Shown piece by piece: positions 65-20,201 of a DNA stretch of 64,000 bases. Each line of letters starts with the position of its first letter. Position 1 is the first letter of the stretch. The notes beneath the pieces were generated by a model, which did not search any database, was not told where the DNA came from, and was given only the letters and a program-made list of their open reading frames with translations. Both the position numbers and the translations under genes were made by a program. The DNA is from Pseudomonas hormoni (GTDB lineage Bacteria > Pseudomonadota > Gammaproteobacteria > Pseudomonadales > Pseudomonadaceae), in contig NZ_CP075566.1 in NCBI RefSeq assembly GCF_018502625.1, forward strand, positions 4,777,001-4,841,000, given 5' to 3'.

Positions 65-925
65 TCAACGATCCGTATTCATCCTGCGAATCAGCTCTGG
101 CCAACCCGGCGCCACGTAGCCAGTTGCCTCACGAAAACGTGAACCGTCCAGCGAGCGATCAATGACCAGTGCATCATCGGGCCGAATATCAATCTGCTTG
201 CCGTACTCAGAGGCGACCAAAGCCAGTAAATCGAACTTGGCGATAGGCTCGGCAGCGACATGATACAGGCCATTGAGACTCAAGTGAGGAACGACGAAGT
301 CTTTCATGACCCGCGCCAGTTCAACCGTCGGCAGCCCGGAGAAGATCGCCTTGGTAAATCCCTTTGCGCTCCCCTGCTGGGACAGGAACCAATCGACCAA
401 TGCATGGCTCGAACCCAGCTCATGCCCGATGATCGAGGTACGCAGCGTGATCGCATGGGGCAAATCATGCAGCTCACCGATGTACTTGGACTTGCCATAC
501 AAATCTTCTGCATCCGACGTATCGGACTCCAGGTAGCCACCCTTACGCCCGGAAAACACGCAGTCGGTGCTGACATGGATTAGCCGCGCACCGCTCAGCT
601 CGCACAACCGGGCCAGCCGATGCGGCAGCATTGCATTAATCGGCAGAGCGGTGAGCGGATCCTTTGCATCGGCCAAATGCTTGATCAGCCCGACACAGTT
701 AATCACCACATCTGGCCTGACCCGGGAGAATGCCGCCGCCAGCGCATCCTGGTCGAGCGCATCTACGCCAACCAGCAAACGCTCATGCGCTTGCAACGGA
801 AAATTCCGGAGCGCCGACGCACTGCGCAGCGTACCCCATGTTTCATGGTGTGCATCAGCAGAGAACACACGAAAAACAGCATTGCCGAGCATGCCGGTAA
901 CACCAAGAACCAGAACCCGTGCCAT
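65..925 (-). CDS. RmlD-type NAD(P)-dependent sugar-nucleotide reductase (possible WbvR-like)
   Basis: This is a 286-aa short-chain dehydrogenase of the RmlD type. It shows an N-terminal Rossmann motif GVTGMLG (residues 8-14), the STDCVFSG strand (119-126) and the catalytic pair Tyr143/Lys147 in YGKSK. It should reduce a 4-keto-6-deoxy sugar nucleotide in the cytoplasm. The length fits RmlD and the WbvR reductase of UDP-L-QuiNAc synthesis better than the roughly 370-aa WbjC/FnlB enzymes of UDP-L-FucNAc synthesis. No rmlA/B/C genes are nearby, so a dTDP-rhamnose role is not supported here. It is the last operon gene visible and starts 23 bp after the gene upstream; the operon continues off the left edge. 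The family is secure, the substrate is inferred. Confidence 0.8.
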   Translation of the reverse strand: MARVLVLGVTGMLGNAVFRVFSADAHHETWGTLRSASALRNFPLQAHERLLVGVDALDQDALAAAFSRVRPDVVINCVGLIKHLADAKDPLTALPINAMLPHRLARLCELSGARLIHVSTDCVFSGRKGGYLESDTSDAEDLYGKSKYIGELHDLPHAITLRTSIIGHELGSSHALVDWFLSQQGSAKGFTKAIFSGLPTVELARVMKDFVVPHLSLNGLYHVAAEPIAKFDLLALVASEYGKQIDIRPDDALVIDRSLDGSRFREATGYVAPGWPELIRRMNTDR

Positions 926-948: not shown

Positions 949-2355
949 TCAAGTCTTGTAGGAATAGCGCAGAAATCTATCAACGGAAAATAGAATCAGA
1001 ACATTCAACAATATGGAGCCGAACAGCATGTAGCTTTGCAATGGTACGTAACCAAAGCTGGTATAGCGAAAAGCTATAACCTGCGCTATCAACGCACAGA
1101 ACACCAGGTTCTTTCCACCCAGCCGGTAAACCATGTACTCAACAAACGCTGCAACTACTGAGAACGCAAATACTGCGCAGAACAAAAAGAGATAGGACCC
1201 AGGATAAAACAGAAATGCGATATATCCTGGCAAGGAAACGAAGTGCGTGCCATCACCGCGGGAGTTATCGTAGGAAGACTCCACAAAATGCTTGTCATAA
1301 AACGAGTTAACCGTTTTATCGAATTTCTCGGAAAGTGCCTCTTTGAACATCGGCCAACCTTTGTCTGTTGAACCCACCACAGACATGACACCTTCCACAC
1401 CCACCCAGCGATCAAGAAAAAGAGTGGACGTTTGTTCTACAACCGCTCCTTCACGCTGAGCCGGGGTGTAATCAGTATAATAAGTTTTAGCCCGCAAGTA
1501 GTTGACAGACAACACCGATGCGACAAATAAGGTACCGAAAACCACTACAACAAATCCCGCCAACCCTAAACGCAAGCGAGGCTCTTGCCGCCGAAACTGC
1601 GCCACGGCACCATACATCAAGGCAGACCCGTTGAGGATCATACCTCGACTCCACAAGGAGACATTGGACAATGCCACCTCCAGGAGAGCGATGACGATTG
1701 CGACCCAATAACGATCTCGGTTCAATTCGAACTCAAAACGCAAGATGATTGCAGAAACGGACGCCATCCCAAACATCAACAACCAGGCATAAACACCATT
1801 AAGCCCGAAAGGCAACTTCACCCGTTCAACCAGGCCTCTCTGGTAAATACCGAACCATGCATTGGAAATGCAGACGGCCAACACAGCCAAAATAAAGGCG
1901 GTCAGCAGTGCGATTCGATATTTTCGATAAAAAGCATACAACCCGGTATAGGAGATATCCGGCATCGTATCGGGATAACTAAAAAAGAAGCGCTGACGAA
2001 TAAACCGCACGAGTAAAATTGCCGCCAGAGCACAGCAAACTACCAGTAACACCTGATCCAGCGAAGCGGGGCTTGCGTCGAAAGCACCTACCGAAATGTT
2101 GAAACGGCCATGGGAAAAAGCTGTGTGCACACTGAACTTCAGCCAGAAGCCGATCCACAGCAAGACACCAATGAAGGAATCGAAAAAAATCGCACCGCGA
2201 CCGAAGCCAAAGAACAGAACCGCCGTCGAGAGCACAGTGAACAGTATATAAACCCATGCACTTCCCTGATATTCGGCCAATGCACAGGCACCGATAAGCG
2301 CAATTCCCGCTAATACGAGTAGCCAAGTACCTTTAATCAGAATATCCCAGCGCAT
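949..2355 (-). CDS. Polytopic membrane protein, candidate O-antigen polymerase (Wzy)
   Basis: This 468-aa protein is made almost entirely of hydrophobic segments (roughly ten or more membrane spans). It has a large polar stretch around residues 300-370, as expected for a periplasmic loop of a polysaccharide polymerase. A short SRG motif near residue 236 sits in a membrane-proximal position. Its location between glycan transport/polymerisation and sugar-reductase genes, and the lack of any other dedicated Wzy, make a repeat-unit polymerase the best guess. Wzy proteins share little sequence, so this rests on topology and context. The gene looks more A+T-rich than the housekeeping genes, as is common for polymerase genes acquired by transfer. 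It starts 6 bp after the gene upstream. Confidence 0.6.
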   Translation of the reverse strand: MRWDILIKGTWLLVLAGIALIGACALAEYQGSAWVYILFTVLSTAVLFFGFGRGAIFFDSFIGVLLWIGFWLKFSVHTAFSHGRFNISVGAFDASPASLDQVLLVVCCALAAILLVRFIRQRFFFSYPDTMPDISYTGLYAFYRKYRIALLTAFILAVLAVCISNAWFGIYQRGLVERVKLPFGLNGVYAWLLMFGMASVSAIILRFEFELNRDRYWVAIVIALLEVALSNVSLWSRGMILNGSALMYGAVAQFRRQEPRLRLGLAGFVVVVFGTLFVASVLSVNYLRAKTYYTDYTPAQREGAVVEQTSTLFLDRWVGVEGVMSVVGSTDKGWPMFKEALSEKFDKTVNSFYDKHFVESSYDNSRGDGTHFVSLPGYIAFLFYPGSYLFLFCAVFAFSVVAAFVEYMVYRLGGKNLVFCALIAQVIAFRYTSFGYVPLQSYMLFGSILLNVLILFSVDRFLRYSYKT

Positions 2356-2361
2356 AATCCC

Positions 2362-4785
2362 TCAGACAACATTTCCACTAACCGTTGAAAGGCGCGCTCT
2401 TGGCAGAGAAATCACCGCCAGCAACAAACCCCATAAAAAGAACATGATTACACCAGAGTACGGTTGGCGCAGACCGACTTTGAAGGCACTGTCGACTACC
2501 AGCATGAAAATGACCACCAGCGCCAGGCCCATGTATGGGCTGTGCGCCCAAAAATCCCGCCACCGCCGGCATACGAGCACAAGACTATACAGAGCCAGCG
2601 CGATTAGCGGCAACAATCCCAGTAGACCGAAGTTGTAAGCGAAATCGAGATAGTAGTTGAGCGCACTGGGGTACAACCCCCTCTCTGGCGACGTAGCATG
2701 ACCGAAAAGGGCATTGGTCCAACTCGCGGAAATGCCATCGATATAGAACATCCAACTCTCCAGATAACCGACCCGTCCCTCGAGCGCCTGCATGGAAAGA
2801 TCGGTCGCCTCTGATAGCGGTGTTGGCACTTCTGCCTGCGACACGTAGTGCATGTACAGGAACGACAGCAGCGCCCCGCACACCGCCAACAGCGGTACGA
2901 CCAGCAAAGATGCCAGGCGTCGCTCTCGCGCCCCTTGCTGCGCAACAAAGCAGAATACCGCCAGCACGAAGAGTAGCATCGCAAGCAGAGACCAGGACAA
3001 AATCACATAGCCGCCCATCAGCAAGGTCAAGGCGCGCAGCCATCCATCAAAACCCGCACGCCCCCAGAGCGTGAACAGCGCCAGCACGAAGGCCGCAACA
3101 AACAACAAGGAAGCATACTGCAGGTGTTGATAGATACTAAAGATATAGACAGAGGGCGAAAGCAGTACATCACCTGAAGTTAGAGTCGCCAGTAACTGCA
3201 AGGGTACTACCGTCAGCAGAATGAATAGCGCGGCCTTGGCAACCAACGTCAGCGCTCCTTCACGCATGCCAAACTGCTGCCCAAGCACGAGAGCGAACAT
3301 CGGCAGGATGTACTGGATCAGCAATATCATCTTCTGACTCCCCCCTCCGCTCGTGTCCAGACCCAGCAGCAGACTGGTCAATAGCATGCCAATGAAAACG
3401 AAAAACAGACTCAGCAATGCCAGGCGCGCGTGCGAGTAGCGACCGAGCAACACCATACCCAAGTAACAGGCCAGTACCGACAGGGGAATCGGTAACAAAG
3501 CCAGAACCCCTCCGTGGCTGAAACTATGGGACGGATCATGGAAAATCCCGCCATTGAGCTGGAAAAACACGGGCAGAAATATCACCAGCGCGATCAGCAA
3601 CAGCAAGTTTTTCTGCGTGAACCAGCCCGAATCACGCCAGGAAAGCAGGCCGTGACGTTCGCTGGCATAGAACACCCAGGACAGGAGTGCACCCAGCAAG
3701 TACAGCAGCGCCAGAGCGTTGACACCGATCCCGTAATACAAGAAGGGGATACTCGCTATCAGCAGAATGTTCGACAACATGTCCGAACCGAACACATCAC
3801 CTCCGGCCTCATCCTGGAGAATGCGCAGACGGATGCGCTGTGCCAGCACCATCACGACCCCCCCCATCAAGGAGCAACCCACAGCCAGCCAGAAGAGCTG
3901 GTCCTTCTCCGTCCAGTCCAGCAAATGCGGAATGCTCCACACCCCGGCCACCAGCACTAAACCGGCCAGCAGCATGACGACCAGCATCAGATTGAACATC
4001 TTGACCAGACGCCCTGGACCTGCCGAGCGCCGCTCGTGCCGCACCATGGTCGGACCCAATGCCTGGGAGAAAACCGCACCGAGAATGCCGCCCAAGGCAA
4101 AGGCCGAAAACAGATCGCCGGCCACCTGCTTGTCCGCCACCAACAAGATGAACAGTCGGAACACGTAAACCGACACACCGATAACCGCGGTCGAACCGAA
4201 GTGCGGCAACATAAGCCGAATGCTGGAAAACAGCGGTACGCCACTGCTCAGGGCACGCTTTGGAAGCCCAAGGCTCATGCATCCAAGCAACGGCGACAGA
4301 GCCCAGAGCAACGTCATGGGTGTAGACAGAGGGCCATCGTTTAGCAGCGCCAGCAGCAGCGCCAGGCTGAGACAGCCCTGGGTAAGCAGGAAGCGGATTG
4401 CTGCGCGTTCCTGGTGACGCAACTCCTGTTCACTGAGAAAGATTTCAGCCAGCCATTCCGCAGCGCGACGCACCACCAGCAGCAGAACAAACAACCAGCT
4501 GCTATCCACAACCCCGGCACACAGCATCCACGCCAGCATGCCCAACGGCAGCAGCAAAATCAGGCGTAGTCGAAGGATCCCGGGAGCATCGATAGCGCCG
4601 GACTCAGAGAGAATCAGACTGCGCGCATTGCCGGAAAACGAGTAGAACAGCGCAACCGTGGCACCGTGGATAAGTCCGAAATCCGCCGCCAGAGCGGACT
4701 TTCCGAACAGACTCAGTCCGATCATGACCACCATCATGGCGAAGGTGTTCGCCATGAAGGCGACGGGGAAGACCATCACACGCAT
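2362..4785 (-). CDS. Large membrane protein: flippase-like (Wzx) domain fused to O-antigen polymerase/ligase-like domain
   Basis: This 807-aa protein is unusually long for a single glycan membrane protein. Residues about 1-380 read like a polysaccharide-export flippase (MATE/PST type) with about a dozen short spans. Residues about 390-800 read like a Wzy/WaaL-type protein: many spans, a hydrophilic periplasmic loop around 660-720, then a SALNYYLDFAYNFGLLG-type segment and terminal spans typical of the O-antigen ligase/polymerase family. No stop or frameshift separates the halves. A separate flippase (18924-20201) and a separate polymerase-like gene (949-2355) occur in the same operon, so this could be a second export system, a ligase or a capsule assembly protein. 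Domain calls are from sequence pattern only. Confidence 0.6.
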   Translation of the reverse strand: MRVMVFPVAFMANTFAMMVVMIGLSLFGKSALAADFGLIHGATVALFYSFSGNARSLILSESGAIDAPGILRLRLILLLPLGMLAWMLCAGVVDSSWLFVLLLVVRRAAEWLAEIFLSEQELRHQERAAIRFLLTQGCLSLALLLALLNDGPLSTPMTLLWALSPLLGCMSLGLPKRALSSGVPLFSSIRLMLPHFGSTAVIGVSVYVFRLFILLVADKQVAGDLFSAFALGGILGAVFSQALGPTMVRHERRSAGPGRLVKMFNLMLVVMLLAGLVLVAGVWSIPHLLDWTEKDQLFWLAVGCSLMGGVVMVLAQRIRLRILQDEAGGDVFGSDMLSNILLIASIPFLYYGIGVNALALLYLLGALLSWVFYASERHGLLSWRDSGWFTQKNLLLLIALVIFLPVFFQLNGGIFHDPSHSFSHGGVLALLPIPLSVLACYLGMVLLGRYSHARLALLSLFFVFIGMLLTSLLLGLDTSGGGSQKMILLIQYILPMFALVLGQQFGMREGALTLVAKAALFILLTVVPLQLLATLTSGDVLLSPSVYIFSIYQHLQYASLLFVAAFVLALFTLWGRAGFDGWLRALTLLMGGYVILSWSLLAMLLFVLAVFCFVAQQGARERRLASLLVVPLLAVCGALLSFLYMHYVSQAEVPTPLSEATDLSMQALEGRVGYLESWMFYIDGISASWTNALFGHATSPERGLYPSALNYYLDFAYNFGLLGLLPLIALALYSLVLVCRRWRDFWAHSPYMGLALVVIFMLVVDSAFKVGLRQPYSGVIMFFLWGLLLAVISLPRARLSTVSGNVV

Positions 4786-4822: not shown

Positions 4823-6034
4823 TCAGCGCTGCAACAACTCGACCAAACGGGTCACTTGACTGTCCATCTCAAAATGCGCATCGAAGTAGGCCCTGCCCGC
4901 CTCCCCCATGACCGCTCGCTCAGCCGGCCCCAGCGCTTTCATGCGTCGGATATTGGTAACCAGCGGCAACACCTGTTCGGCAGGCGAGGTCAGCCCCGCT
5001 CCAGCTTCATAGACCACCCTAGCACCCTCGCCGTTCATACAAGCGATAATCGGCCGTCCAGCGGCGAGGTACGCCTGAATCTTGCTGGGGATAGTCTGGG
5101 CGAAGGCTTCTTCATCATTAAGCGATACCAGCAGGGCTGATGAGCGTTCGAAAATCGCAGACATTGCCTCCATCGGAAAGCGCCCTGGCAACACCAGATT
5201 GTCCAACGCCAGCGCCTGCTGCTGCGATTTGAGCCAGTCCAGGCGGCTTCCGCTGCCGACCAGCACAATGCGGATATCCGGTTCATCGCGCAGCTGTTCC
5301 GCCGCCTGTACCAGCGTATCCAGGGCCTGGGCAGTGCCCAGATTGCCGGCAAACACCACACAGAAGTGTTGTTTGAGCAACGCGTCCAGCTCCAGGGGAA
5401 CCTCCACCACCGACCGCTCACTACGCACATCCATAGAGTTGGGGTAGTACTGAATCTTCTCGCGTGCGGCATAGCGAGCCACCGGCTCGACGAAAGCGCG
5501 CGACTGCACCAGCAGCGTGTCGCAATGGCGATAAATCGCCCTGACCATCCAGCCCACCAATTTGAGCAAATGCCGATTGCGCACAAAACCGGTGGCAGAC
5601 AGACTTTCCGGCCACAGATCCTGCACCCAGAGCGCCAGATGCGCCTTCTTCAGCCACTTGAGGGGAATGGCCGGAATCGCCTGGGTGACTGGCGAGGGTG
5701 CGAAGACCAGGATCGCATCGAATTCGCGCTTGCGCAGCATCCAGGGCAGGTAAAGCAACCCGGCGAACACGAACGAAAGGTAGTTGAGAATCAGGTTCTT
5801 CGCCCCCCCTTTACCGCGCGGCCACAGTGGCACACGCAGCACCTCGATGTGCCCCTCATAGCGTTCTCGCTGAGTACCCGCCGCGCGATAGCCTTCAAAT
5901 ACGTTGCCATCCGGATAGTTGGGCTTGCCGGTAGTAACCACAACGTCGTGCCCCTGCTCGGCAAGGGTCCGCACGATATCGTTGATGATGAAACTTTCCG
6001 GCCAGAAATACTGGGACAGCATCAGAATTCGCAT
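4823..6034 (-). CDS. GT4-family glycosyltransferase, WbuB-like
   Basis: This 403-aa retaining GT-B glycosyltransferase starts MRILMLSQYFWPE, the opening typical of WbuB/WcaI proteins. The C-terminal half carries the nucleotide-sugar site, with GNLG near residue 235 and an SKIQAYLAAGRP segment near 332 whose position matches the E-x7-E region of family GT4. WbuB proteins are associated with L-FucNAc transfer, which would fit an L-FucNAc or L-QuiNAc sugar made with the RmlD-like reductase; the donor is inferred. It should act at the cytoplasmic face on an undecaprenyl-linked acceptor. It begins 3 bp after the stop of the neighbouring glycosyltransferase gene. Confidence 0.82.
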   Translation of the reverse strand: MRILMLSQYFWPESFIINDIVRTLAEQGHDVVVTTGKPNYPDGNVFEGYRAAGTQRERYEGHIEVLRVPLWPRGKGGAKNLILNYLSFVFAGLLYLPWMLRKREFDAILVFAPSPVTQAIPAIPLKWLKKAHLALWVQDLWPESLSATGFVRNRHLLKLVGWMVRAIYRHCDTLLVQSRAFVEPVARYAAREKIQYYPNSMDVRSERSVVEVPLELDALLKQHFCVVFAGNLGTAQALDTLVQAAEQLRDEPDIRIVLVGSGSRLDWLKSQQQALALDNLVLPGRFPMEAMSAIFERSSALLVSLNDEEAFAQTIPSKIQAYLAAGRPIIACMNGEGARVVYEAGAGLTSPAEQVLPLVTNIRRMKALGPAERAVMGEAGRAYFDAHFEMDSQVTRLVELLQR

Positions 6035-6037
6035 GAC

Positions 6038-7234
6038 TCAACGACTTGCCTGTGATGAAAGAATATGCCGATAAAGATCGAGCATACGCACGGCATTGGC
6101 TTCGATCGAGAATGTATGTTCCGCCCAGCTCCTGGCTTGCGTACCCAGCTGCCGGCGCCAGAGCGGAGCCTCGGCCATCCGCTGCAGGGCATCGGCGATC
6201 AGCGTCGGATCTGGCGTCGGCACCGCCAACCCCGTGACTTCATGTACCAGGGCGTCGGGCACCGGATCGGTCACCGCCACGACGCTCGGAACGGAATAGA
6301 AAGCCGCTTCAAACACCGGCCGGCCAGCCGCATCCAGGTGCGAAGGGAAGCAGAGGATATCCAGTTGCGGGTAGAGCGTGCGGACATCGCTCACGAATCC
6401 GAGCAGCTTGACCTGTTCCTCCAGGCACTCACGCCGGATCAGCGCTTCGAGCTCGGCACGCATATCCCGCGCGAAGCCGAATTTCCCGAGCACCCAAGCC
6501 TTGAAACCAGAGAGCTGGCGCGCGTTCTCGCCAGCGACCAGGCACTCGATACGTACGCCTCGCCCCTTGAGAATACGCATCGCCTCGACCAGCTCGAAGA
6601 TGCCTTTGAGCGGAATCAGCACCCCCAGAAAACCGACCCTGACCACCTCGTCATCACCCCTGGGCTCCGAGGCCGGGATTTGCCCGGCGACCTTGAGCCC
6701 GTTATGGATGATGCTGAGCGGCAAATTCGGCTCGAGCGTTGCGGCCACCGTATGGTCGATCGCCACTACGGCGTTGGCATAACGGCGTAAAAGGGCGTTC
6801 ACCCAGCGAGTACGCAAGCCGGCCCCCGGCTTGCGCTGCAATGAGCGGACATGTACCACCAGCGGCACGCGCAGCATCCACTTGGCAACCACCGCAAGAG
6901 GCAACAGGGTGACTTCGTTGACGTGGATCAGATCGAAAGGCTCACGGCGCAGGCGCCACAATCCGAGCAGCGAGAACGGCAGCAGGAATAGCTCGCGCAG
7001 CAGGATGAGCCAGCGCACCTTGCGGTAGTAACCGTAGCGGGTGTTATCGAACTGACTCAGCCCCCTGACCGCTTCTACCTGCAGTCCTGCCTCGGCAAAG
7101 GATTGGCAGACCGGCCCAGCGGGCGTCAGCACAGTGCCGCGCACTCCTGCGCCACGCAACATGGCATACAACTCGATCAGGCTTTTCGAGGCACCGCCAA
7201 ACGCTGCCGCAGGGTGCAAAAACAAGACTTTCAA
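6038..7234 (-). CDS. GT4-family glycosyltransferase
   Basis: This 398-aa GT-B glycosyltransferase has an N-terminal acceptor domain with a glycine-rich loop (AAFGGASKS, residues 10-18). Its C-terminal Glycos_transf_1 domain contains GFLGVLIPLKGI and the EAAFYSVPSVV region (E-x7-E equivalent). The start codon is TTG (positions 7234-7232) preceded by an AAGGG ribosome-binding site, the only plausible start for this N terminus. It likely adds one sugar of the repeat unit. The specific donor and linkage cannot be read from the sequence. Confidence 0.8.
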   Translation of the reverse strand: MKVLFLHPAAAFGGASKSLIELYAMLRGAGVRGTVLTPAGPVCQSFAEAGLQVEAVRGLSQFDNTRYGYYRKVRWLILLRELFLLPFSLLGLWRLRREPFDLIHVNEVTLLPLAVVAKWMLRVPLVVHVRSLQRKPGAGLRTRWVNALLRRYANAVVAIDHTVAATLEPNLPLSIIHNGLKVAGQIPASEPRGDDEVVRVGFLGVLIPLKGIFELVEAMRILKGRGVRIECLVAGENARQLSGFKAWVLGKFGFARDMRAELEALIRRECLEEQVKLLGFVSDVRTLYPQLDILCFPSHLDAAGRPVFEAAFYSVPSVVAVTDPVPDALVHEVTGLAVPTPDPTLIADALQRMAEAPLWRRQLGTQARSWAEHTFSIEANAVRMLDLYRHILSSQASR

Positions 7235-9167: not shown

Positions 9168-9168
9168 G

Positions 9169-9934: not shown

Positions 9935-11368
9935 TCAGCCAGCCTTGTCAAGCACGTGGCCAAGATAGTTTTTGTAGTTGCTCACCCAGTCGCTCGCCCA
10001 GATATCCTCATCGATAACAGGCAACCCGGAACCCTCAGGCTTGAGCAACTCTTCGACAAAACCTTTGGCATCCACGAATCCGGAGAACGGATGGCTGGGA
10101 TAACTGAATTGAGCTTTGGGGGTTTCCCACAACAAGACCTTACCGGCTATTCCGATTGCTTCGAACAACCCGGTTGAAACCTCGCCTGCTACAGCATGTG
10201 CGCTGATGAAAGAGCTATAGATGTCCCGATTGGTATCAATGAAGACGTCCCCGATCTTGCCGTCAGGGTAACGCCGATAGACCTCGACACGCTCCAGCGG
10301 ATGCGGACGCAGCACGATACGGTACTGCCCGCGCAACAGTTCAGCCAGCTCAGTGGCCAACGCCACGTAGAGTGGAAACTCGATACCATCGCCCAACAGA
10401 AGGATATCGTTCTGCACGCCCTTGGCCAGTGACATACCGCGTCGCTGCTCACTGTAATGGGGATGCCCGATCACCCATTTCTCCACCGGCACATTGATCT
10501 GCTTGTTCCACCACGAGCCATAACCGAGAAAATCGTGCGGTAGACACGCTTTGTATTCGGCACTGTCGCGCAGCAATGGCGCATAGCAATAGGCATCGTG
10601 ACCACCGGACACCATGCCGTGCTGCGGCTCGGCGACACGGATGCCCATTTCACGGGCAATCTGGTTGATCGGCGAAAAATCGCCATAACAAGCCTGCTCC
10701 AACAGTATCAAGCGCGGCCGAACCTTTTCCAGCAGACGCCGATAGGCATGATGGACAACCGGCAGGCGAGCCAGCTTGCGGGCCAGCATTCCGACCAGCA
10801 TATCCATCTGTGTCTCGGCGATGCTTAAATCGAGAAGGTCATGCGCCCGCTGTCTGGCGTATGCCAGCACCTCACGAGCGGTTTCAACATGCGAATCTCG
10901 CTGCAACAACCGTCCGGCTACCGTAATAGCCCCCTGCCACGGCAACCAGTAGGAAATCCGCTGATTCCAGCGCGGCCGGGGTACGTTCCAGTCCACCACA
11001 CCTTCAACGGTCACAGTGTCCGGCGGCGATGCCTGCGCCAGATAGTCGGTAATGCGATTGAACCAGCGCCCCTCGCGCAGGAAACTGCCCGCTCCCGTCC
11101 CGATCACCAGAACATCACCACTCAAGCGCCTCTGCCCCAGATTGTGTCGAGCGACACGGGCAAGCGATGCCAGCGCCTGCCCACGCGGCACGGCGGGCAC
11201 GGCAGCGATCAACGGTGCCTCCTGGTAGTAGAGGTCGGAAATCAACTGGCGATAAAACTGGTTACGGACCAGAGGCCAAAGCAACGCTCCGCTGCGGGGG
11301 CAGCGAAACGTCAGAAACGCGGGGTCGTTCTCAATTTCGAGTAATTGCGCAAAGCTTGGCTGCCGCAC
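9935..11368 (-). CDS. Protein of unknown family, candidate nonulosonic-acid (pseudaminic) transferase
   Basis: I do not recognise a named family for this 477-aa soluble protein. It has no membrane span. Motifs typical of capsule/teichoic-type and Kdo/sialyl-type GT-B enzymes are visible: QHGM (249-252), GHPHY (301-305), an acidic LLGDG turn (324-328), LRPHPLE (353-359) and STGLFEA (398-404). The HP motif and the S-x-x-FEA nucleotide-site region recur in CMP-sugar users. The gene starts with GTG that shares one base with the pseI stop and ends the Pse block, which would suit the transferase using CMP-Pse. Function is inferred from motifs and position only. Confidence 0.5.
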   Translation of the reverse strand: MRQPSFAQLLEIENDPAFLTFRCPRSGALLWPLVRNQFYRQLISDLYYQEAPLIAAVPAVPRGQALASLARVARHNLGQRRLSGDVLVIGTGAGSFLREGRWFNRITDYLAQASPPDTVTVEGVVDWNVPRPRWNQRISYWLPWQGAITVAGRLLQRDSHVETAREVLAYARQRAHDLLDLSIAETQMDMLVGMLARKLARLPVVHHAYRRLLEKVRPRLILLEQACYGDFSPINQIAREMGIRVAEPQHGMVSGGHDAYCYAPLLRDSAEYKACLPHDFLGYGSWWNKQINVPVEKWVIGHPHYSEQRRGMSLAKGVQNDILLLGDGIEFPLYVALATELAELLRGQYRIVLRPHPLERVEVYRRYPDGKIGDVFIDTNRDIYSSFISAHAVAGEVSTGLFEAIGIAGKVLLWETPKAQFSYPSHPFSGFVDAKGFVEELLKPEGSGLPVIDEDIWASDWVSNYKNYLGHVLDKAG

Positions 11369-12420
11369 TAGATAATATTCCAGCCGATCGGCGTGCCACG
11401 CTTGATGGCTTGTTTCGCACGCTTGCCTATCACCTGCTCGAAGTACTTCGGCGGCAACCCCAGACCTGGCCGGATGATGCGTACGTTGGCCGGCGACAGC
11501 AGCTCGCCCTCTGCGATGTCCTCGCTGGCATAGATGGAGCGGCGGAAAACCCGGCTCTTCTCTTCGGCAGCGGTGGCGCCATAGCTGACACGTCCCAGGG
11601 ATTGCCAGGCGCGCTCGGTTTCGATGACCAGCTGCGCCATTTCGGCAGGCTCCATCGAAAACGCACTGTCGACCCCGCCGTCGGCACGGCTTAGCGTGAA
11701 GTGCTTTTCGACCACGGTCGCGCCCAGCGCAACACTGGCTACGGACACACCGATACCCATGGTGTGGTCGGACAATCCGACTTCGCAGCCGAACAACTCA
11801 CGCAGATGCGGGATAGTCAGAATATTGGTGTTCTGTGGCGTCGCCGGGTAGGTACTGGTGCACTTGAGCAAGACAAGATCCTTGCAACCGGCCTGCCGCG
11901 CAGCACGCACGCTTTCGTCCAGTTCCGCCACCGTGGCCATGCCGGTGGAAATGATCAACGGCTTGCCCGTAGCTGCCACACGGCGAATCAGCGGCAGGTC
12001 CGTATTCTCGAAGGAAGCGATCTTGTAGCAGGGAACGTCCAGCGCCTCGAGAAAATCGACTGCCTTGTCATCGAAAGGGGTGCTGAACGCGATCATCCCC
12101 AACTCGCGCGCCCGGTCGAAGATCGGCTTGTGCCATTCCCACGGAGTGAACGCCTCGCCATAGAGTTTGTACAGCGAAGTACCGGCCCACAGGCTGTTGG
12201 GGTCGCTGATATGGAACTCGCCCTCATCCAGGTCCAGCGTCATCGAATCCGCGGTGTAGGTCTGAATCTTCAGGGCATGGGCGCCGGTGCTTGCCGCCGC
12301 CTCGACGATTTCGAGAGCACGCTCGAGGGACTGGTTATGGTTGCCTGACATTTCAGCAATGACGAAAGGCGCATGACCAGGGCCGATGTGACGATTTGCG
12401 ATTTTGAATGATTCAGTCAT
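11368..12420 (-). CDS. pseI: Pseudaminic acid synthase
   Basis: This 350-aa NeuB-family enzyme condenses phosphoenolpyruvate with 2,4-diacetamido-2,4,6-trideoxy-L-altrose to give pseudaminic acid. The TIM-barrel part carries IAEMSGNHNQ (22-31), the LYGEAFTPWEWH segment characteristic of PseI rather than NeuB/LegI, and GLSDHTMGI. A C-terminal antifreeze-like SAF domain (about 290-350) completes it; length is normal for the family. It overlaps the PseG fusion gene by 4 bp (ATGA), so translation is probably coupled. The PseI rather than LegI call is strengthened by PseC, PseF and PseG neighbours. Confidence 0.9.
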   Translation of the reverse strand: MTESFKIANRHIGPGHAPFVIAEMSGNHNQSLERALEIVEAAASTGAHALKIQTYTADSMTLDLDEGEFHISDPNSLWAGTSLYKLYGEAFTPWEWHKPIFDRARELGMIAFSTPFDDKAVDFLEALDVPCYKIASFENTDLPLIRRVAATGKPLIISTGMATVAELDESVRAARQAGCKDLVLLKCTSTYPATPQNTNILTIPHLRELFGCEVGLSDHTMGIGVSVASVALGATVVEKHFTLSRADGGVDSAFSMEPAEMAQLVIETERAWQSLGRVSYGATAAEEKSRVFRRSIYASEDIAEGELLSPANVRIIRPGLGLPPKYFEQVIGKRAKQAIKRGTPIGWNII

Positions 12421-13934
12421 AGCTCATGCAACTTCTTTGAAAATCGAGTGATGTCGATGTCATAGCCTGCGGCCATGAACAGCCCATTGGAGCGTTTGTT
12501 GGAGCCCTTGACCTGCGCGTGCAGCCAACGCACATCGGCGCAATGCCGGACAATCCAGTCCTCGGCGCTCTGAAGCAGATCACCACCGCGGCTGCGCGAG
12601 GCCGCGTCGGGCACCAGGTAAATGGAAACCTCGGCCTGGCCACCTTCTTCCAGGTCAAAACGCACAACCCCCGCCGGCTCGCCGCCCTGTTCGCCTATCA
12701 ACAGCTTGCGTTGCGGATCTGCGAGTACTGACGCGAACCAGCGGCAGTGATCCTCCCAGGCAATTTCCTCGGTATTTCGAGAAACAGCGCGGATCGAGGG
12801 GTGGTTGCGCCAGCGATATAGAGCGGACGAGTCCTCTGGCTGTGCGGCACGCATGTCTACGCCGGTGCACCCCATGTGCGCAGCCAGGCGTTGCACGCCC
12901 AGGCCATCCACGGCAGCCATGCCCTGGTTCGAAATCAGCGTGCGCAGCGCAGGATTTTGCTGCAGGGCTTTCAGGTGTAGCGCGAGATCCGCCTGAAAAT
13001 CTTCCCCAGCCTGAAGGGTATAGACCAGGCCCCGGCTTGCCGCATCGGCCAGCTGTCGAGTCTGATTGTCCGCAGTGCTCAGTGCCAATGTCGGCAGTCC
13101 AAGACTGCATCGCTCCCAAGTCGCCGTCCCACCTGCGCCAATCGCCAGATCAGCGCTGGCCATCAGCTCGGCCATTCGCGTGGTCTGCACATGACAACGG
13201 TAACCTTGGTGCTGGCACAGGGTCTCGATGGCAGCACGCTGCGGATGCAACGCACCGAGCACCACATCGACCTCAACGCCTGCCTGAGCAATACCTGGCA
13301 CAGCGGCCAGCGCCTGGCCGGTGAAATTGTGTTCATCGACGCCGCCGAAGAACACCAGCACCCGTTTGATCTCCTCCCCACGCGGAGGCAGATTCACGCG
13401 AAGGCGACGGAATTCGTCGCGCAACAACGCGAAGCGCGGCCCCAGCAGCAGCTGGCATACCTCGGGCACCTTGCCGTCATAACGCGACTGCATGTCTTGA
13501 TACAGATTCTGATCCAGAAGCAGGTCACACTCATGTTGACGATCCGCCAGGTCATCGATCACCAGGATCCTGCGCACGGCTTGTCGCAGGCGCATCTCCC
13601 AATGCCGGTCGAGGGCATAGTGATCGACAATCAACCAGTCCCATGCCTGCCCCAGCAATGCTTCCAGACTATCTGCGGCATCCGTGACCTGGGTGGTACC
13701 CAACCAATCGGCATGCGCCAATCCGGTGTCAGGCGTGTCGTTCTCGCGGGCAGGCAGGCTGCGCAGCGCATGCCCGTGACGCGCCAGCAACTGCGCAAGA
13801 TGCGACGGCAACTCGCGGCACAGGAAAACGCACTGTGCGCCACGTTGCGCGAGGGTGTCGGCCAGGGTAAGGCAACGCATGAAGTGCCCGGTCCCCATTC
13901 TCTGGCCGGCATCGACACGTAGAACTATGTTCAA
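12417..13934 (-). CDS. pseG: Fused PseG hydrolase - GNAT acetyltransferase (PseG-PseH)
   Basis: This 505-aa protein carries two steps of pseudaminic-acid synthesis. Residues about 1-335 match PseG, a GT-B-like hydrolase that removes UDP from UDP-2,4-diacetamido-2,4,6-trideoxy-L-altrose; the GTGH motif (14-17) holds the expected catalytic His17. Residues about 340-505 form a GNAT domain that probably does the PseH acetylation, which precedes hydrolysis. No separate pseH exists in the window. The start codon is TTG, overlapping the hisF-like stop as TTGA. The fusion would couple two consecutive reactions, although the domains are in the reverse order of the pathway. Confidence 0.87.
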   Translation of the reverse strand: MNIVLRVDAGQRMGTGHFMRCLTLADTLAQRGAQCVFLCRELPSHLAQLLARHGHALRSLPARENDTPDTGLAHADWLGTTQVTDAADSLEALLGQAWDWLIVDHYALDRHWEMRLRQAVRRILVIDDLADRQHECDLLLDQNLYQDMQSRYDGKVPEVCQLLLGPRFALLRDEFRRLRVNLPPRGEEIKRVLVFFGGVDEHNFTGQALAAVPGIAQAGVEVDVVLGALHPQRAAIETLCQHQGYRCHVQTTRMAELMASADLAIGAGGTATWERCSLGLPTLALSTADNQTRQLADAASRGLVYTLQAGEDFQADLALHLKALQQNPALRTLISNQGMAAVDGLGVQRLAAHMGCTGVDMRAAQPEDSSALYRWRNHPSIRAVSRNTEEIAWEDHCRWFASVLADPQRKLLIGEQGGEPAGVVRFDLEEGGQAEVSIYLVPDAASRSRGGDLLQSAEDWIVRHCADVRWLHAQVKGSNKRSNGLFMAAGYDIDITRFSKKLHEL

Positions 13935-14713
13935 GAACTCGCCTCACCCAGGAAATTGCGCCTCACCGGAATGCCGGCAGCCTGCATTGCAGCCTTGGCG
14001 CCGGCAGGTGTCAGCTCGGTGAAGTGGAAGATACTGGCGGCAGCAACGGCCGAAGCCCCCGCCTGCTGCACCACATCAATCATGTGTTGATAACTGCCGG
14101 CCCCCCCGGAAGCAATCACGGGGATATCCACGGCCCGGGCAATCTTTTCCACCAGTGCCAGGTCATATCCACCCATGGTGCCGTCCCGTTCGATGGAGGT
14201 CAGCAGAATCTCGCCTGCTCCACGCGCAGCCAGCTCTCTGGCCCACTGCTCCACCTCACGACCGGTATCCTGGGTGCCAGCATGACTGAAGCAGCGATAG
14301 CTCCCATCATCCATGCGCCGGACATCAACGCTCGCCACCACGCATTGCGCACCAAAACGCGAGGCTGCCGCCTCAATCAATAGAGGATTGGCATAGGCAG
14401 CGCTATTGATGGCAATTTTGTCGGCACCACTGTGCAACAGCGCCAACACCTGCTCCACGCTGGTGATGCCGCCACCTACTGTCAGCGGCACAGTACATTC
14501 TTCGGAATAGTCATTGACCGAATCATGGTCCGGTAATTCGCCTTCCTGAGTCGCAGTGATATCTACCAGAATCAATTCGTCCACATCGCGCGCGTTGTAG
14601 ACCTTGATCGCAGGCAGCACCGGCCCAACCCGCCGCCAACTATCGAAGCCGGCACCTTTCACCAGTCCCAGCCCCTTCCAGAGCAAAGTGGGGATGACAC
14701 GAACCTTCAACAT
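13931..14713 (-). CDS. hisF2: HisF-like ammonia-channel subunit (copy 2)
   Basis: This 260-aa HisF-family barrel differs clearly from copy 1 at 8394-9167, so it is not a recent duplicate. Position 11, Asp in true HisF, is Leu; the SVD motif near 129 is kept, and the second catalytic Asp region reads SIERDGT. It should therefore act as an ammonia-delivering partner for the amidotransferase encoded two genes upstream, not as a histidine enzyme. It overlaps the hisH-like gene (7 bp) and the PseG fusion (4 bp). Confidence 0.85.
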   Translation of the reverse strand: MLKVRVIPTLLWKGLGLVKGAGFDSWRRVGPVLPAIKVYNARDVDELILVDITATQEGELPDHDSVNDYSEECTVPLTVGGGITSVEQVLALLHSGADKIAINSAAYANPLLIEAAASRFGAQCVVASVDVRRMDDGSYRCFSHAGTQDTGREVEQWARELAARGAGEILLTSIERDGTMGGYDLALVEKIARAVDIPVIASGGAGSYQHMIDVVQQAGASAVAAASIFHFTELTPAGAKAAMQAAGIPVRRNFLGEASS

Positions 14714-15330
14714 GGCGAATAGCTCAGAAAGTTACGAAGTAGACGTCGTCCCGCCTTGGAGCTTTTCTCCGGGTGAAACTGACAACCAAAGACATGATCC
14801 CGGCGCACGGCCGCAGTCAGGTCGACGCCGTAAGGAACGGTCGCCAGCCTATGCTCAAGCGCCTCAGGAACGAAGGCGTAGCTGTGCACGAAATAGAAGT
14901 CCGACCTGTCCGGGATACCTTCGAAAAGAACGTCGCTACCATCGTGACACGCTTCGTTCCAGCCTACATGCGGAATACGCAACGTGCAGCCCAGTTCGTC
15001 CAGGCGTCGCACCTGACCGGGGATCAATCCAAGTCCAGGCGTAACGCCGTTCTCATGTCCCTCGCTGGCCAACAGCTGCATGCCCAGGCAAATACCCAGC
15101 AACGGTTTGCCTTGCTCGCCCACTACCTCACGCAGTGCCTCGCTCCAGCCACCGTGATCGAGATGGGCCATGCCTTCCTTAAACGCCCCGACACCCGGCA
15201 GCACAATACGGTTCGCGTCGTACAGTGCTGACGGGTGATTGGCGATTACCGGTTCGGCACCCAGCTCCTCGAAGGCTCGGCGTACCGAGCTCAGGTTGCC
15301 CACCCCATAATTGACGATGGCGACTTTCAT
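14707..15330 (-). CDS. hisH2: HisH-like glutaminase subunit (copy 2)
   Basis: This 207-aa class I glutamine amidotransferase has Cys81 in GICLGMQ and His186/Glu188 in FHPEKS, so the glutaminase triad looks intact. It is placed between the amidotransferase and HisF-like genes and overlaps both, giving a tightly coupled three-gene unit. Its likely job is to supply ammonia for amidation of a sugar acetamido group, here probably on the pseudaminic-acid branch. Confidence 0.85.
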   Translation of the reverse strand: MKVAIVNYGVGNLSSVRRAFEELGAEPVIANHPSALYDANRIVLPGVGAFKEGMAHLDHGGWSEALREVVGEQGKPLLGICLGMQLLASEGHENGVTPGLGLIPGQVRRLDELGCTLRIPHVGWNEACHDGSDVLFEGIPDRSDFYFVHSYAFVPEALEHRLATVPYGVDLTAAVRRDHVFGCQFHPEKSSKAGRRLLRNFLSYSPC

Positions 15331-16475
15331 ACGTTGTCGTGGTTCAGCTTCATGAGGTTGCCGTGTCGATCCTTGATCAACACGCCGGATGCATCACGCT
15401 TGAAAATCTTCTTGTTGGTGAACCGGTCACAGATCTTGATGAACTCGTCCGTGGTCATTTCCAGCGGCTCGAGAATTTCCGCGAGCGGTTTACCCAGGTA
15501 GGTCCAGGGGAATTTGCCGTCACGCGCCTTGACGATTTCAATGGCATCCTGTCGCGTGATACGTTTACGCCGTACATGCAGGCACGCGATATCAGTGGCG
15601 CGAGAGAAGCCAAATTTCAGGTATTTGAAATAGTCGTGAATTCCGTGCTGATGGTTATCCAGATTCTCATAGTTAACCATCGACCCTTCAACTGGCTTAT
15701 CGTAGGTAACAAAGCCATGGGCCTGGGCAATCAAAGTGTTGGAAAGCCCATCCCAAGGCAGATAGTGCCCGAGAAAAAGTCCGGTTACCCCGACCCGCTG
15801 GAGATCTTCATCCGAAGGATACTGATAAGGGAGCAGGCTGCGCGGCTCTATGCCGTAAGTCTCAGAAAGATCGGACACGCGTAGCCCCAGAAGCCCGCCA
15901 AACTCTTCCAGCCAGCGCCGGGTTAGGGTGTTGTTTTCGGTAGCTGCCGCCGGCCCGCCGTATTCATTCTGCGAGTTTTCACCCCAGACAATGAGAGGTA
16001 CGTTGTACTGCACAGCCGCACGTACAGGGATTGTGAAGATACCCACATGCTCAGGCCATGCAATATCACCGACCTCAGTCAGTCCGATGCGATTGAGCTT
16101 GGCACGCACGAGTGGATTGGGTGAAAACTGAACATGATCCACGCCTAGACGCTGAAGGTTCTGGATATTCCGTCGACCGTTCTCACTTTGGTCACAGGTA
16201 GTCGAGGTGACACACAGCGGGTTCAAACCCAGTTGCAACATCCGAATTACCTGGTAAGTGCTGTCCTTGCCGCCACTCACCGGAACGATGCAATCCCAAT
16301 TACTGCCATGGCGTCGATGCTTTTCGAGCAGCGCCAGGAGTTCATTCTTACGCTGATCCCAATCGACCTCCTTGCGTTTTTCGAAGGAGCGGCAAGCGTT
16401 GCAGACGCCCTCCTCGTCAATATGCAGATCCGGCTTGGTGTGCGGCATCACGCAGCGAACGCAGTACTTCAACAT
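15327..16475 (-). CDS. N-acetyl sugar amidotransferase, WbpG/PseA-like (copy 2)
   Basis: This 382-aa member of the WbpG/PseA family has Cys5, Cys8, Cys25 and Cys28 in a zinc-ribbon arrangement and a PP-loop SGGKDS (67-72), against SGGVDS in copy 1. Location inside the pseudaminic block (between pseF and the PseG fusion) suggests a PseA-like role, converting an acetamido group of pseudaminic acid to acetamidino. This is inference; the two copies could also serve sugars the other way round. It overlaps the hisH-like gene by 4 bp (ATGA). Confidence 0.83.
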   Translation of the reverse strand: MLKYCVRCVMPHTKPDLHIDEEGVCNACRSFEKRKEVDWDQRKNELLALLEKHRRHGSNWDCIVPVSGGKDSTYQVIRMLQLGLNPLCVTSTTCDQSENGRRNIQNLQRLGVDHVQFSPNPLVRAKLNRIGLTEVGDIAWPEHVGIFTIPVRAAVQYNVPLIVWGENSQNEYGGPAAATENNTLTRRWLEEFGGLLGLRVSDLSETYGIEPRSLLPYQYPSDEDLQRVGVTGLFLGHYLPWDGLSNTLIAQAHGFVTYDKPVEGSMVNYENLDNHQHGIHDYFKYLKFGFSRATDIACLHVRRKRITRQDAIEIVKARDGKFPWTYLGKPLAEILEPLEMTTDEFIKICDRFTNKKIFKRDASGVLIKDRHGNLMKLNHDNV

Positions 16476-16541
16476 CTCAAACTCCCTTCGCCAACGGCAA
16501 CCAGATGATGTCGTCCTGGGGTGTCACAAAATCCGATGCAC

Positions 16542-17240
16542 TCATTGTCTCTGGTCACTCATCAATTGTTTGAAAATCATTTCAGCGCGAATCCAATCGT
16601 CCATGTCGTCGATATCCTGAACCCTCCAACGCGGAATGCAAACCGGCGTTGAGTGGCGATCGAAGACTTTCAGCCCTTGGGTCCAGGCATCAGCGAGCCC
16701 CCAGTAAAACTGACCGGCATCGTGCAAGGCGACTGGCAAATCCTGGGAGCGCGTTGTGAAAAACTCGGGAAACAGCATAGACACGCCGCCTTCCGCAGAC
16801 GCCTGAAAGGCGCGATAAACCGAAGGAGAAAACTCGGCAACCGAGAACGCATAGGCCCAGTCTCCGGATTCAAAAAGCTCCAGACCACGTGCCAGGTCTT
16901 CAGGTCGAATCAGCGGCGCAGTCGCATAAATGCAGCATACTGCCGTAACGGAAACGCCCTGATCTTGCAACCAGCGCGTTGCATGGGCGATCACCTCGGT
17001 GGTCCCGGCGTAGTCGTCGGACAGCTCCGGCGGCCGCACGAAGGGTGTTTCTGCCCCCCAGGCACGCGCGACCTCGGCGATCTCCTCATCGTCAGTGGTG
17101 ACGATTATACGCTCGAACAGGCCACTCTGCTGGGCAGCCAGAATCGACCAAGCGATCATCGGCCGGCCGCAGAACATCTTGATGTTCTTGCGCGGAATGC
17201 GCTTGCTGCCGCCGCGCGCCGGGATCACCGCCACCTTCAA
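16542..17240 (-). CDS. pseF: Pseudaminic acid cytidylyltransferase
   Basis: This 232-aa CMP-sugar synthetase activates pseudaminic acid with CTP to CMP-Pse, the donor for the transferase. The nucleotide-binding motif IPARGGSKRIPRKNIK lies at residues 6-21, and ELSDDYAGTTEV and QFYWGL segments are as in PseF. The start codon is TTG overlapping the pseC stop as TTGA, which implies coupled translation. A 66-bp gap follows before the amidotransferase gene. Confidence 0.9.
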   Translation of the reverse strand: MKVAVIPARGGSKRIPRKNIKMFCGRPMIAWSILAAQQSGLFERIIVTTDDEEIAEVARAWGAETPFVRPPELSDDYAGTTEVIAHATRWLQDQGVSVTAVCCIYATAPLIRPEDLARGLELFESGDWAYAFSVAEFSPSVYRAFQASAEGGVSMLFPEFFTTRSQDLPVALHDAGQFYWGLADAWTQGLKVFDRHSTPVCIPRWRVQDIDDMDDWIRAEMIFKQLMSDQRQ

Positions 17241-18376
17241 GATAGAGCCTCGCGGAGCAGGTCAACCACGCTTTGCTGCTCTTCGTCGGTCAGGTCATAG
17301 AACAAAGGCAGGCTGAACGCCTCGGCGAAATAATGCTCCGCCTCGGGGAAATCGCCCGCCTTGAAACCCAGATTGCGGTAATACGGCTGGGTATGCACCG
17401 GAATGTAATGCACCTGAACCCAAACATCCGCGGCACGCAATTTGGAGAACACATCCAGGCGACGTTCCGCCGCAACCCTGATCGGGTACAAATGCCAGGC
17501 CGACTCTTCGCTGGCCTGCGGCAGGACGATGGGCAGATCAGCCAGCAGCGCATGGTACTGCCGCACCAACTGGCGACGACGCGCAATGAACGGCGAGAGG
17601 CGCGCCAGTTGACTGAGGCCCAATGCGGCTTGCAGGTTGGTCATGCGGTAGTTGAAGCCCAGTTCAATCTGCTGGTACTCCCATGGCCCCTGCGGAGCAC
17701 TGACCATCTCGTCGCTGCCCTGCGCAATACCATGGGTACGCAACCGAACCAGACGCTTCGCCAATGCCGTGTCATTGGTCGTCAACATACCGCCTTCACC
17801 GGTGGTAATGATTTTCACCGGGTGGAAGCTGAAGACCGTGATATCGCTGTACTGGCAAGCACCGACTGGCATGCCTTGATGCTCAGCGCCCACTGCGTGC
17901 GAGGCATCCTCGATGATCCGGAAACCATACTCCTTGCCCAGCGCCGCGATGGCCTGCATGTCGCAACTGCGACCGGAGAAATGCACCGGAATAACCACTT
18001 TTGGCAGACGGCCAGCCTGGCGTGCGGCATCCAGCTTTTCGGCCAGCCGCTCCACACTGAGGTTGAGCGTTTGCGAATCGATATCGACGAAGTCAATATC
18101 GGCGCCGCAGTAAAGCGCGCAATTGGCACTGGCAACGAAGGTGTTGGGGCTGGTCCAGACCAGATCTCCCGGCCCTACATCCAGCGACAGGCAAGCGATG
18201 TGCAGCGCGGCCGTGGCATTGCTGACAGCCACTGCATGCCGGGCCTGGCAGACCTCGGCCACGGCTCGCTCGAAGCTGGCTATACCGGGTCCCTGAGTCA
18301 GCCACTCCGAACGCAGCACCTCAACCACCGCTGCAATATCGTCATCACTAATATTTTGTCGACCGTATGGAATCAT
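17237..18376 (-). CDS. pseC: UDP-4-amino-4,6-dideoxy-L-altrosamine transaminase
   Basis: This 379-aa PLP aminotransferase of the DegT/DnrJ/EryC1 family carries the PLP lysine Lys188 in FHPVKIITTGEGG. The opening MIPYGRQNISDDDI and the overall pattern match PseC, which aminates UDP-2-acetamido-2,6-dideoxy-L-arabino-hexos-4-ulose with glutamate. Its substrate is made by PseB, which is not in this window. It starts at ATG 18376, 29 bp after the acyltransferase stop, and is the first gene of the Pse block. Confidence 0.9.
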   Translation of the reverse strand: MIPYGRQNISDDDIAAVVEVLRSEWLTQGPGIASFERAVAEVCQARHAVAVSNATAALHIACLSLDVGPGDLVWTSPNTFVASANCALYCGADIDFVDIDSQTLNLSVERLAEKLDAARQAGRLPKVVIPVHFSGRSCDMQAIAALGKEYGFRIIEDASHAVGAEHQGMPVGACQYSDITVFSFHPVKIITTGEGGMLTTNDTALAKRLVRLRTHGIAQGSDEMVSAPQGPWEYQQIELGFNYRMTNLQAALGLSQLARLSPFIARRRQLVRQYHALLADLPIVLPQASEESAWHLYPIRVAAERRLDVFSKLRAADVWVQVHYIPVHTQPYYRNLGFKAGDFPEAEHYFAEAFSLPLFYDLTDEEQQSVVDLLREALS

Positions 18377-18923: not shown

Positions 18924-20201
18924 TTAGCATCCTGGATTACTCTGCGCTCTGAAAAGTGAGCGCCACGGCAGAGGGAACACCTTCTGGGCCAGGCGCCATG
19001 CCCCCATAAAGAACATAAACTGAACAAGCACATAGGCCCACGCGGCGCCAATGACACCCACCCAATTCACCAGCGAATAGGTCAGTGCGACGCTCAGCAA
19101 ACCGACCGCCAAAGTGAGTTTCGCCAGAAGCACGGTTCGCTCGAAAAAGAACAAAAATCCTGCCACCACGTAATACATTCCCATGAAAGCATTACCGAAA
19201 CCGATCAATTGCGCGATCGGTAGCGAGGCACTGTATTGCTCGCCGACGATGAAGGGATAAAGGTACGGCAAAAATGCCACATAGCCGAGTGCCAGCACCA
19301 GGAAACCTGCGAAGACTACGGCACATTGGCGGACCATACGAAGGCCGGATGTCGAGTCCCGGGTTTTCAGTTCGGAAAAGAGATGAGGGCCGAAAGCCTT
19401 GACGAAAGCATCTGCCAGCAGCCCGACCACCATCCCCATCTGCACGCCCACTGCGTAAGCGCCCGTCACACCGATACCCAGCAGATGAGTAATGATAAAG
19501 CGATCACTCATGGCGATCATCATTGCACCCACTGCATGGGGAATCAGTGGCACGCCAAAGCGCAAGACTGACCGGACATATTCACGATCCAGGCTCCAGC
19601 GCACCAGCCGCCGACGCTGTAGACCGTAGAGCGCCAGGCCGGCAAACAGAAAGCCCACCACCGTGATACCCAGCACCCTCCCTTCCCAACCCAGACCGAG
19701 AAGAAAAATCAAACCCAGGGAAAGCGAAAGGTTCAAGGTAGTCTGCAGGATCTGGAACAAACCGTATCGCATCACCTCGTTCCGGACCTGCCAGATCACC
19801 AGACGGACCTGAACGATGGCCTGCGTTGCCGAAACCAGCACCGCGACCAGCAGCCAGCTTTCGGGAATCTCCGTCGAGCGGGCAAGCGGCCCGGCCATCA
19901 GCCAAACCACCAGCAACACCAGACTGGTACTCACCGCCAGGACACCAAGGCATGCACCGACAAAGCGCGGGTGATCAGTGCTATTGTCGAAATGACGCAC
20001 GCTGACCGCACCATGAATACTCAGCCCGGTGAATGCCGAAAGCACACCCACCACAGTGGTGAACATGGTCACCACGCCATACTCCGCCGGCGCCAGAACC
20101 CTTGTGAGAACGGGCAGGAGGAAAAACGGGATGGCACTGTTGATGACATTCGCCAACGCGTATGTGGCAGTGGAGTTCAGCAGCCGCTTCAACGCCGTCA
20201 T
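18924..20201 (-). CDS. wzx: Polysaccharide repeat-unit flippase (Wzx family)
   Basis: This 425-aa protein has about 12 evenly spaced hydrophobic segments and a basic N terminus (MTALKRLLNS), the layout of Wzx/PST flippases. It would move undecaprenyl-diphosphate-linked repeat units across the inner membrane. It starts at ATG 20201, overlapping wbpE by 4 bp, and lies in the sugar-synthesis part of the operon. A second flippase-like domain exists in the 807-aa protein at 2362-4785. Confidence 0.8.
   Translation of the reverse strand: MTALKRLLNSTATYALANVINSAIPFFLLPVLTRVLAPAEYGVVTMFTTVVGVLSAFTGLSIHGAVSVRHFDNSTDHPRFVGACLGVLAVSTSLVLLVVWLMAGPLARSTEIPESWLLVAVLVSATQAIVQVRLVIWQVRNEVMRYGLFQILQTTLNLSLSLGLIFLLGLGWEGRVLGITVVGFLFAGLALYGLQRRRLVRWSLDREYVRSVLRFGVPLIPHAVGAMMIAMSDRFIITHLLGIGVTGAYAVGVQMGMVVGLLADAFVKAFGPHLFSELKTRDSTSGLRMVRQCAVVFAGFLVLALGYVAFLPYLYPFIVGEQYSASLPIAQLIGFGNAFMGMYYVVAGFLFFFERTVLLAKLTLAVGLLSVALTYSLVNWVGVIGAAWAYVLVQFMFFMGAWRLAQKVFPLPWRSLFRAQSNPGC

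Follow-up and report, generated by a model that had tools for sequence, protein, structure and literature searches.

Within a 64,000-nucleotide stretch of the Pseudomonas hormoni genome (contig NZ_CP075566.1, positions 4,777,001 to 4,841,000; the window in the following), a gene of the O-antigen locus at 2362..4785 on the minus strand encodes a protein of 807 amino acids in which a MOP-type flippase fold is followed by a WaaL/Wzy-type fold. Flipping and polymerisation of the O-antigen unit are two steps that are normally carried out by two proteins, and it is an open question whether flippase and polymerase proteins are in physical contact. The first-pass annotation of this DNA had the coordinates and the length right, though it gave no strand, and had described a flippase-like and then a polymerase/ligase-like domain in one chain. 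The fusion gene is a single open frame without any break, and the junction between both parts is free of stop codons not only in the window protein, where an uninterrupted frame had been noted before, but also in 16 further full-length relatives that share 44-77% identity with it. Six bases separate the end of the gene from the start of the next one, which encodes a polytopic polymerase-like protein of 468 residues (TM468; 949..2355, minus strand). About 37 bases lie between the start of the fusion gene and a WcaI-like glycosyltransferase gene directly upstream (4823..6034, minus strand; NF007640 151.3 bits, below the cut-off of 276).

The two-domain architecture emerges from a predicted structure of the fusion (predicted local distance difference test, pLDDT, 79.0; predicted template modelling score, pTM, 0.82), for which fold comparison matched residues 1-387 to structures of the MOP superfamily and residues 382-798 to WaaL. 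The MurJ/Wzx-like fold followed by a WaaL/Wzy fold that the first-pass annotation had proposed to look for was thus obtained, and neither a single fold over the whole length nor a joining of two genes, the outcomes it had set against its own reading, was found. Reading the model by eye, we delimited an N-domain of 12 helices (residues 1-385; 3631..4785, minus strand) that displays the two helical bundles of the MOP fold and a C-domain of another 12 helices (residues 388-807; 2365..3624, minus strand) with the WaaL fold. The placement of the domains relative to each other was judged by pTM alone, and a model built from the single sequence (pLDDT 46.5, pTM 0.30) was set aside. A Foldseek search with the fusion returned nothing at E <= 0.001, the best match being a MATE transporter at E 1.9e-3. 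Because the N-domain has an even number of helices and the linker is positively charged, both domains would be oriented alike in the membrane, which we regard as a supporting point; lysines and arginines number 17 in the loops taken as inside and 6 in those taken as outside. From the model helices and these loop charges, the large loop that connects helices 21 and 22 (residues 651-710; 2656..2835, minus strand) is predicted to be periplasmic.

At the level of sequence, the window protein has no entry in Pfam (searched to E 10) or NCBIfam (to E 1). Across the 17 full-length members of the fusion family that we aligned, Pfam Wzy_C (PF04932) touches two (best E 4.5e-6), and the L039 protein scores 27.0 bits, under the cut-off of 31.7. 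No flippase family (PF01943, PF13440 or those of NCBIfam) appeared in the Pfam scan of these 17 members (to E 1) or in the NCBIfam scan. We then made local profile-against-profile comparisons of six sets: the N-domain, the C-domain, TM468, 32 Wzx-type proteins, 39 Wzy_C-type proteins and 11 proteins collected with TIGR04370. The C-domain matched the Wzy_C set at 97.9% (E 5.8e-13), and a second profile comparison with 21 Wzy_C proteins gave 97.6% (E 3.4e-12) over 333 columns. The TIGR04370 set matched the C-domain at 78.8% (E 1.7e-5) and the Wzy_C set at 96.8%, and TM468 had a weak and short match to the Wzy_C set (71.3%, E 3.6e-5, 40 columns only). Apart from the N-domain against the Wzx-type set, which is taken up below, the remaining ten pairs reached at most 0.8%, and searching the sequences of the PDB with full-length, C-domain and N-domain profiles returned nothing meaningful. 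By these profiles, the C-domain is homologous to Wzy_C proteins. Of the two halves, it is the only one that can be recognised by sequence, so that its assignment draws on both fold and sequence, and that of the flippase domain on fold.

Among 21 aligned proteins of the 39 Wzy_C-type proteins collected, an arginine (R345) and a histidine (H389) are invariant and another arginine (R267, within an "SR") is nearly so. The solved WaaL structure 7tpg carries both arginines and the histidine, which we take to be the catalytic residues of WaaL. The pattern H[NSQ]x9Gxx[GTY], presumably the histidine motif of Wzy_C/WaaL proteins, is found in 37 of the 39 proteins by hand count; L073 and L112, both among the 18 outside the alignment, have no such motif. 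According to the alignments (and, for the histidine, the list of motifs), the window copy reads Leu600 in place of the arginine of the "SR" motif (codon at 2986..2988), Tyr674 in place of the other arginine (2764..2766) and Leu709 in place of the motif histidine (2659..2661; all on the minus strand). Over the 17 rows of the family alignment, position 600 is never arginine, position 674 is arginine in 10, and position 709 is histidine in 10, leucine in 4, tyrosine in 2 and phenylalanine in 1. The C-domain residues that are invariant across the family include His696, Arg702, Asn710, Asp714, Arg773 and Gln774.

The fusion is encoded within the N-acetylfucosamine (FucNAc) cassette of the O-antigen locus, where it is followed by TM468, an RmlD-like reductase, an FnlA-like protein, a WecB-type epimerase, another epimerase and a WbpM-like protein. 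The models for FnlA and RmlD score under their cut-offs in the window locus (for the RmlD-like reductase at 65..925, minus strand, TIGR01214 82.9 bits against 224.05), and we assume from its position that the latter gene is WbjC-like in the L-FucNAc pathway; this name and the other Wb- names used for the locus are our own assumption. When the window genes were compared by BLAST with 16 other loci, FnlA-like and WecB-type genes were found near the fusion in all of them and an RmlD-like gene in 15 (not in L024). The WcaI-like gene lies directly upstream of the fusion in 10 of these loci and within about 0.6 kb in two (L035 and L024), is separated from it by a fusion fragment in one (L040) and is found elsewhere in three (L036, L038 and L039).

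The window locus also encodes an ordinary Wzx-type flippase (18924..20201, minus strand; PF01943 58 bits, cut-off 28.2, E 1.3e-15; PF13440 49.1 bits, cut-off 23), so that the independent flippase described by the first-pass annotation is indeed there. Its independent polymerase-like gene stands as a separate gene, that of TM468, whereas the likeness to polymerases is limited to the short Wzy_C match mentioned above, and no convincing Pfam family was found across the 14 TM468 members scanned. Among 18 fusion genomes, 16 have a separate PF13440 flippase that shares the contig of the fusion and lies no more than about 17 kb from it, the exceptions being P. guguanensis (G810), where none was seen, and G818 with one on another contig. 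A TM468 homolog is likewise present in 16 of the 18, all except P. mosselii (G815) and Pseudomonas sp. PD9R (G819), and lies directly beside the fusion in 14. We surveyed all polytopic proteins in the locus stretches examined, that is, every frame that had at least six hydrophobic segments or matched any of six profiles. In P. mosselii and PD9R (2/18), the fusion is the sole polymerase candidate within about 40 kb, since the other polytopic frames are Wzx-type, together with a WbpL-like protein and a 645-residue acyltransferase (G815 only). Both of these fusions retain Arg674 and His709. His709 is thus present in both rows from genomes lacking TM468 and in 8 of the 15 other rows, which is suggestive only of an association between loss of this histidine and presence of TM468. 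In P. guguanensis (1/18), it is the flippase side that is reduced, and the fusion is the sole flippase candidate seen near the locus. The parts missing in these three genomes could be supplied by genes elsewhere in them.

Some of these loci also hold extra material. P. mosselii has a second fusion copy in two frames, split after residue 616, alongside the intact one (L036:8713-11183), and in PD9R a 153-residue N-domain fragment (L040:9953-10414) lies directly upstream of the full-length fusion, so that both genomes without TM468 have additional fusion copies or pieces. In P. guguanensis, a DDE transposase gene (L031:7413-8393) upstream of the fusion replaces the variable O-antigen genes of other loci, and the fusion cassette is kept.

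In a sample of 398 genomes of the genus, 10 matched and 9 had the fusion, the remaining one (G286) matching solely through a C-terminal part that resembles Wzy_C (E 8.3e-4). Of 398 genomes drawn from across the phylum, eight matched, three of them (the window's own genome, G300 and G439) with the fusion and five by the C-terminal part alone. Scanning species genomes with two conserved peptides yielded 16 loci, from Pseudomonas species and Atopomonas hussainii as well as three loci in betaproteobacterial metagenome-assembled genomes; one of the 16, L041, matched only in part, at the end of a contig. One of the betaproteobacterial copies is 72% identical, which suggests transfer. The N-domain profile found 10 places in 9 of the 398 genus genomes, every one a frame of at least 672 codons and thus fused, and no intact standalone N-domain was seen among the best four candidates per genome. 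A C-domain without an N-domain is present in the window's own genome (491 residues; L016:9054-10529, contig positions about 5,889,054-5,890,529) and is 41% identical to the window C-domain. As its match starts at model position 370, within the last flippase helix, it probably derives by truncation from the fusion gene of another lineage, and about 600 bases separate it from a tRNA-Arg. No other flippase-Wzy_C fusion was found in the three long Wzy_C frames checked among the matches listed (808, 938 and 812 codons), and no relative of the fusion was found in viral contigs, plasmids and phages.

Among the relatives compared, purifying selection acts on both domains. For the eight closest pairs, the ratio of nonsynonymous to synonymous substitution rates (dN/dS), calculated with our own Nei-Gojobori script, fell between 0.09 and 0.22 in the N-domain and between 0.11 and 0.22 in the C-domain, with several dS values close to saturation. 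The domains have not always travelled together. The fusions of L026 and L031 share 88% identity over residues 1-340 (proportion of synonymous differences, pS, 0.35), 53% over 345-385 (pS 0.86) and only 43% and 40% beyond 385 (pS 0.83 and 0.80), and their TM468 proteins share 83% (pS 0.45). Those of L027 and L033 share 81% over 1-340, 76% over 388-480 and 44% over 485-807, and the L033 C-domain has 50% identity to that of the window. The group of L026, L027, L028 and L031 is present in the N-domain tree and rejected by the C-domain tree (approximately unbiased test, p 7.9e-5), and two groups of the C-domain tree are rejected by that of the N-domain (p 0.025 and 0.014), all for clades chosen after viewing the trees. 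Given these drops of identity and the conflict between the trees, the sequences tell of a C-domain that was swapped one or more times while the N-domain stayed constant. L026 and L027 display the opposite pattern to L026 and L031, their C-domains being 83-86% identical and their TM468 proteins 59%, so that TM468 changes independently of the C-domain.

Taking architecture, locus and conservation together, we consider the fusion to be a two-domain O-antigen assembly protein that combines a flippase with a polymerase-type domain, and we give this reading, which leaves aside the catalytic state of the window C-domain, a probability of about 0.5. We infer a flippase activity, a transfer activity and a hand-over between them. 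The N-domain would carry the undecaprenyl-diphosphate-linked oligosaccharide to the periplasmic face, where the C-domain, on that same face, would take it over and join the units as Wzy does; in copies without the canonical residues, such as that of the window, it might instead pass the oligosaccharide on to the neighbouring TM468. The C-domain may carry the specificity for glycan or linkage, in which case its exchange behind a staying N-domain would be expected. The stronger proposal that one polypeptide both flips and polymerises the O-antigen unit, as a Wzx-Wzy machine that occurs naturally in a single chain, its flippase constant and its polymerase module exchangeable, is one that we advance tentatively and with more doubt than confidence. 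If true, it would allow substrate channelling between the two steps to be tested directly. A natural fusion sets the stoichiometry and geometry of flipping and polymerisation and offers a structural target, and its exchangeable C-domain points to where glycan or linkage specificity may lie. Copies without the residues typical of WaaL/Wzy_C that are still under purifying selection raise the question of what role a catalytically altered polymerase fold might play.

Several observations weigh against reading the fusion as an assembly protein of this kind. With a separate flippase in 16 and a TM468 homolog in 16 of the 18 fusion genomes, neither activity of the fusion is required to complete the Wzx/Wzy pathway in most loci. 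The P. guguanensis locus, the one with no flippase candidate seen besides the fusion, may no longer be functional, because the transposase gene occupies the position of the variable region. The N-domain is not recognised as Wzx at the sequence level by Pfam, NCBIfam, profile-profile comparison or the PDB profile search, and its best profile comparison, with the 32 Wzx-type proteins, is not significant (3.8%, E 0.011, 225 columns). Finally, the window C-domain may be no enzyme, because it lacks each of the three residues that Wzy_C/WaaL proteins conserve.

This last point leads to the alternative of a flippase with a non-catalytic tail, a pseudo-enzyme that would bind the lipid-linked oligosaccharide or dock the real polymerase TM468. 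We think it unlikely on balance but worth taking seriously, as it would account for the altered positions of the window copy, for the missing arginine at position 600 in all 17 rows, for TM468 as the immediate neighbour of the fusion in 14 genomes and for the origin of all seven rows without His709 from genomes with a TM468 homolog. Such a tail fits poorly with the invariance of family-specific polar C-domain residues such as His696 and Asp714, has no TM468 to dock in two of the 18 loci and is at odds with the independent exchange of C-domain and TM468. Considerably less probable is a machine for a second glycan or side branch, in which the fusion would flip another unit (e.g., a decoration) and transfer it onto an O-antigen whose backbone is made by Wzx (18924-20201) and TM468. 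Most loci do hold a complete second set of Wzx and polymerase-like genes, yet the fusion has no second group of sugar-assembly genes separately attached to it and sits within the FucNAc cassette wherever loci were compared, and some loci have no TM468. A flippase fused to a dedicated O-antigen ligase, as the first-pass annotation had envisaged, is improbable for the window copy, which lacks the motif histidine and both arginines and shares its genome with a separate WaaL-like gene with an intact histidine motif (L072:604-2469, 621 residues). Broken or partial copies like those of P. mosselii and PD9R do exist, but an artefact in which a sequencing or assembly error merged two genes is ruled out for practical purposes, as is a dead gene, by the 16 uninterrupted relatives and by dN/dS far below 1 in both domains.

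Compared with known systems, the assembly protein proposed here has in common with Wzx, the O-unit flippase of the MOP superfamily (solved relatives WzxE, 9g9p and 9g9n, and MurJ, 6cc4), both the MOP fold and the setting in a polysaccharide locus; unlike Wzx, it escapes the flippase models of Pfam and NCBIfam, bears an additional transmembrane domain and, in 16 of 18 genomes, occurs alongside an ordinary Wzx. Its C-domain has the fold of WaaL/Wzy_C proteins, but it is joined to a flippase, does not reach the PF04932 cut-off and, in the window copy, departs from them at positions 600, 674 and 709. Like Wzy polymerases, the fusion is polytopic with a large predicted periplasmic loop and belongs to an O-antigen locus, a likeness of topology and locus rather than of solved structure, and as the sole polymerase candidate in two loci it could have a Wzy-like role; it differs from them in the attached flippase and in the second polymerase-like gene of most loci. 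In peptidoglycan synthesis, MurJ and the SEDS polymerases FtsW and RodA are separate proteins, whereas the fusion is one chain and serves a surface glycan.

The remainder of the window locus comprises further glycosyltransferases, among them one of GT4 type (6038..7234, minus strand; PF00534 1.1e-22), a WbuX-type amidotransferase and a stretch of pseudaminic-acid genes (11368..18376, minus strand). The latter includes PseI (11368-12420), a PseG/PseH-like gene (12417-13934), PseF (16542-17240) and PseC (17237-18376), all on the minus strand, with PseI, PseG, PseF and PseC above their cut-offs and PseH below. The strain behind L027 has the examined pseudaminic-acid genes in common with the window strain. 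Two sets of amidotransferase-like, HisH-like and HisF-like genes lie at 7283-9783 and 13931-16475; the amidotransferase scan covered the gene of the first set, and the second is named by likeness. A locus protein of 477 residues (9935-11368) has no Pfam match. To the left of the window (L017:4792-7803), the space between the epimerase and WbpM-like genes, which in most other loci holds a WbpL-like gene, showed none. The WaaL-like protein of L072 is itself composite, with Wzy_C (PF04932 61.1 bits, cut-off 31.7) followed by a Kdo/WaaP-kinase-like stretch (PF06293 25.5 bits) in one protein.
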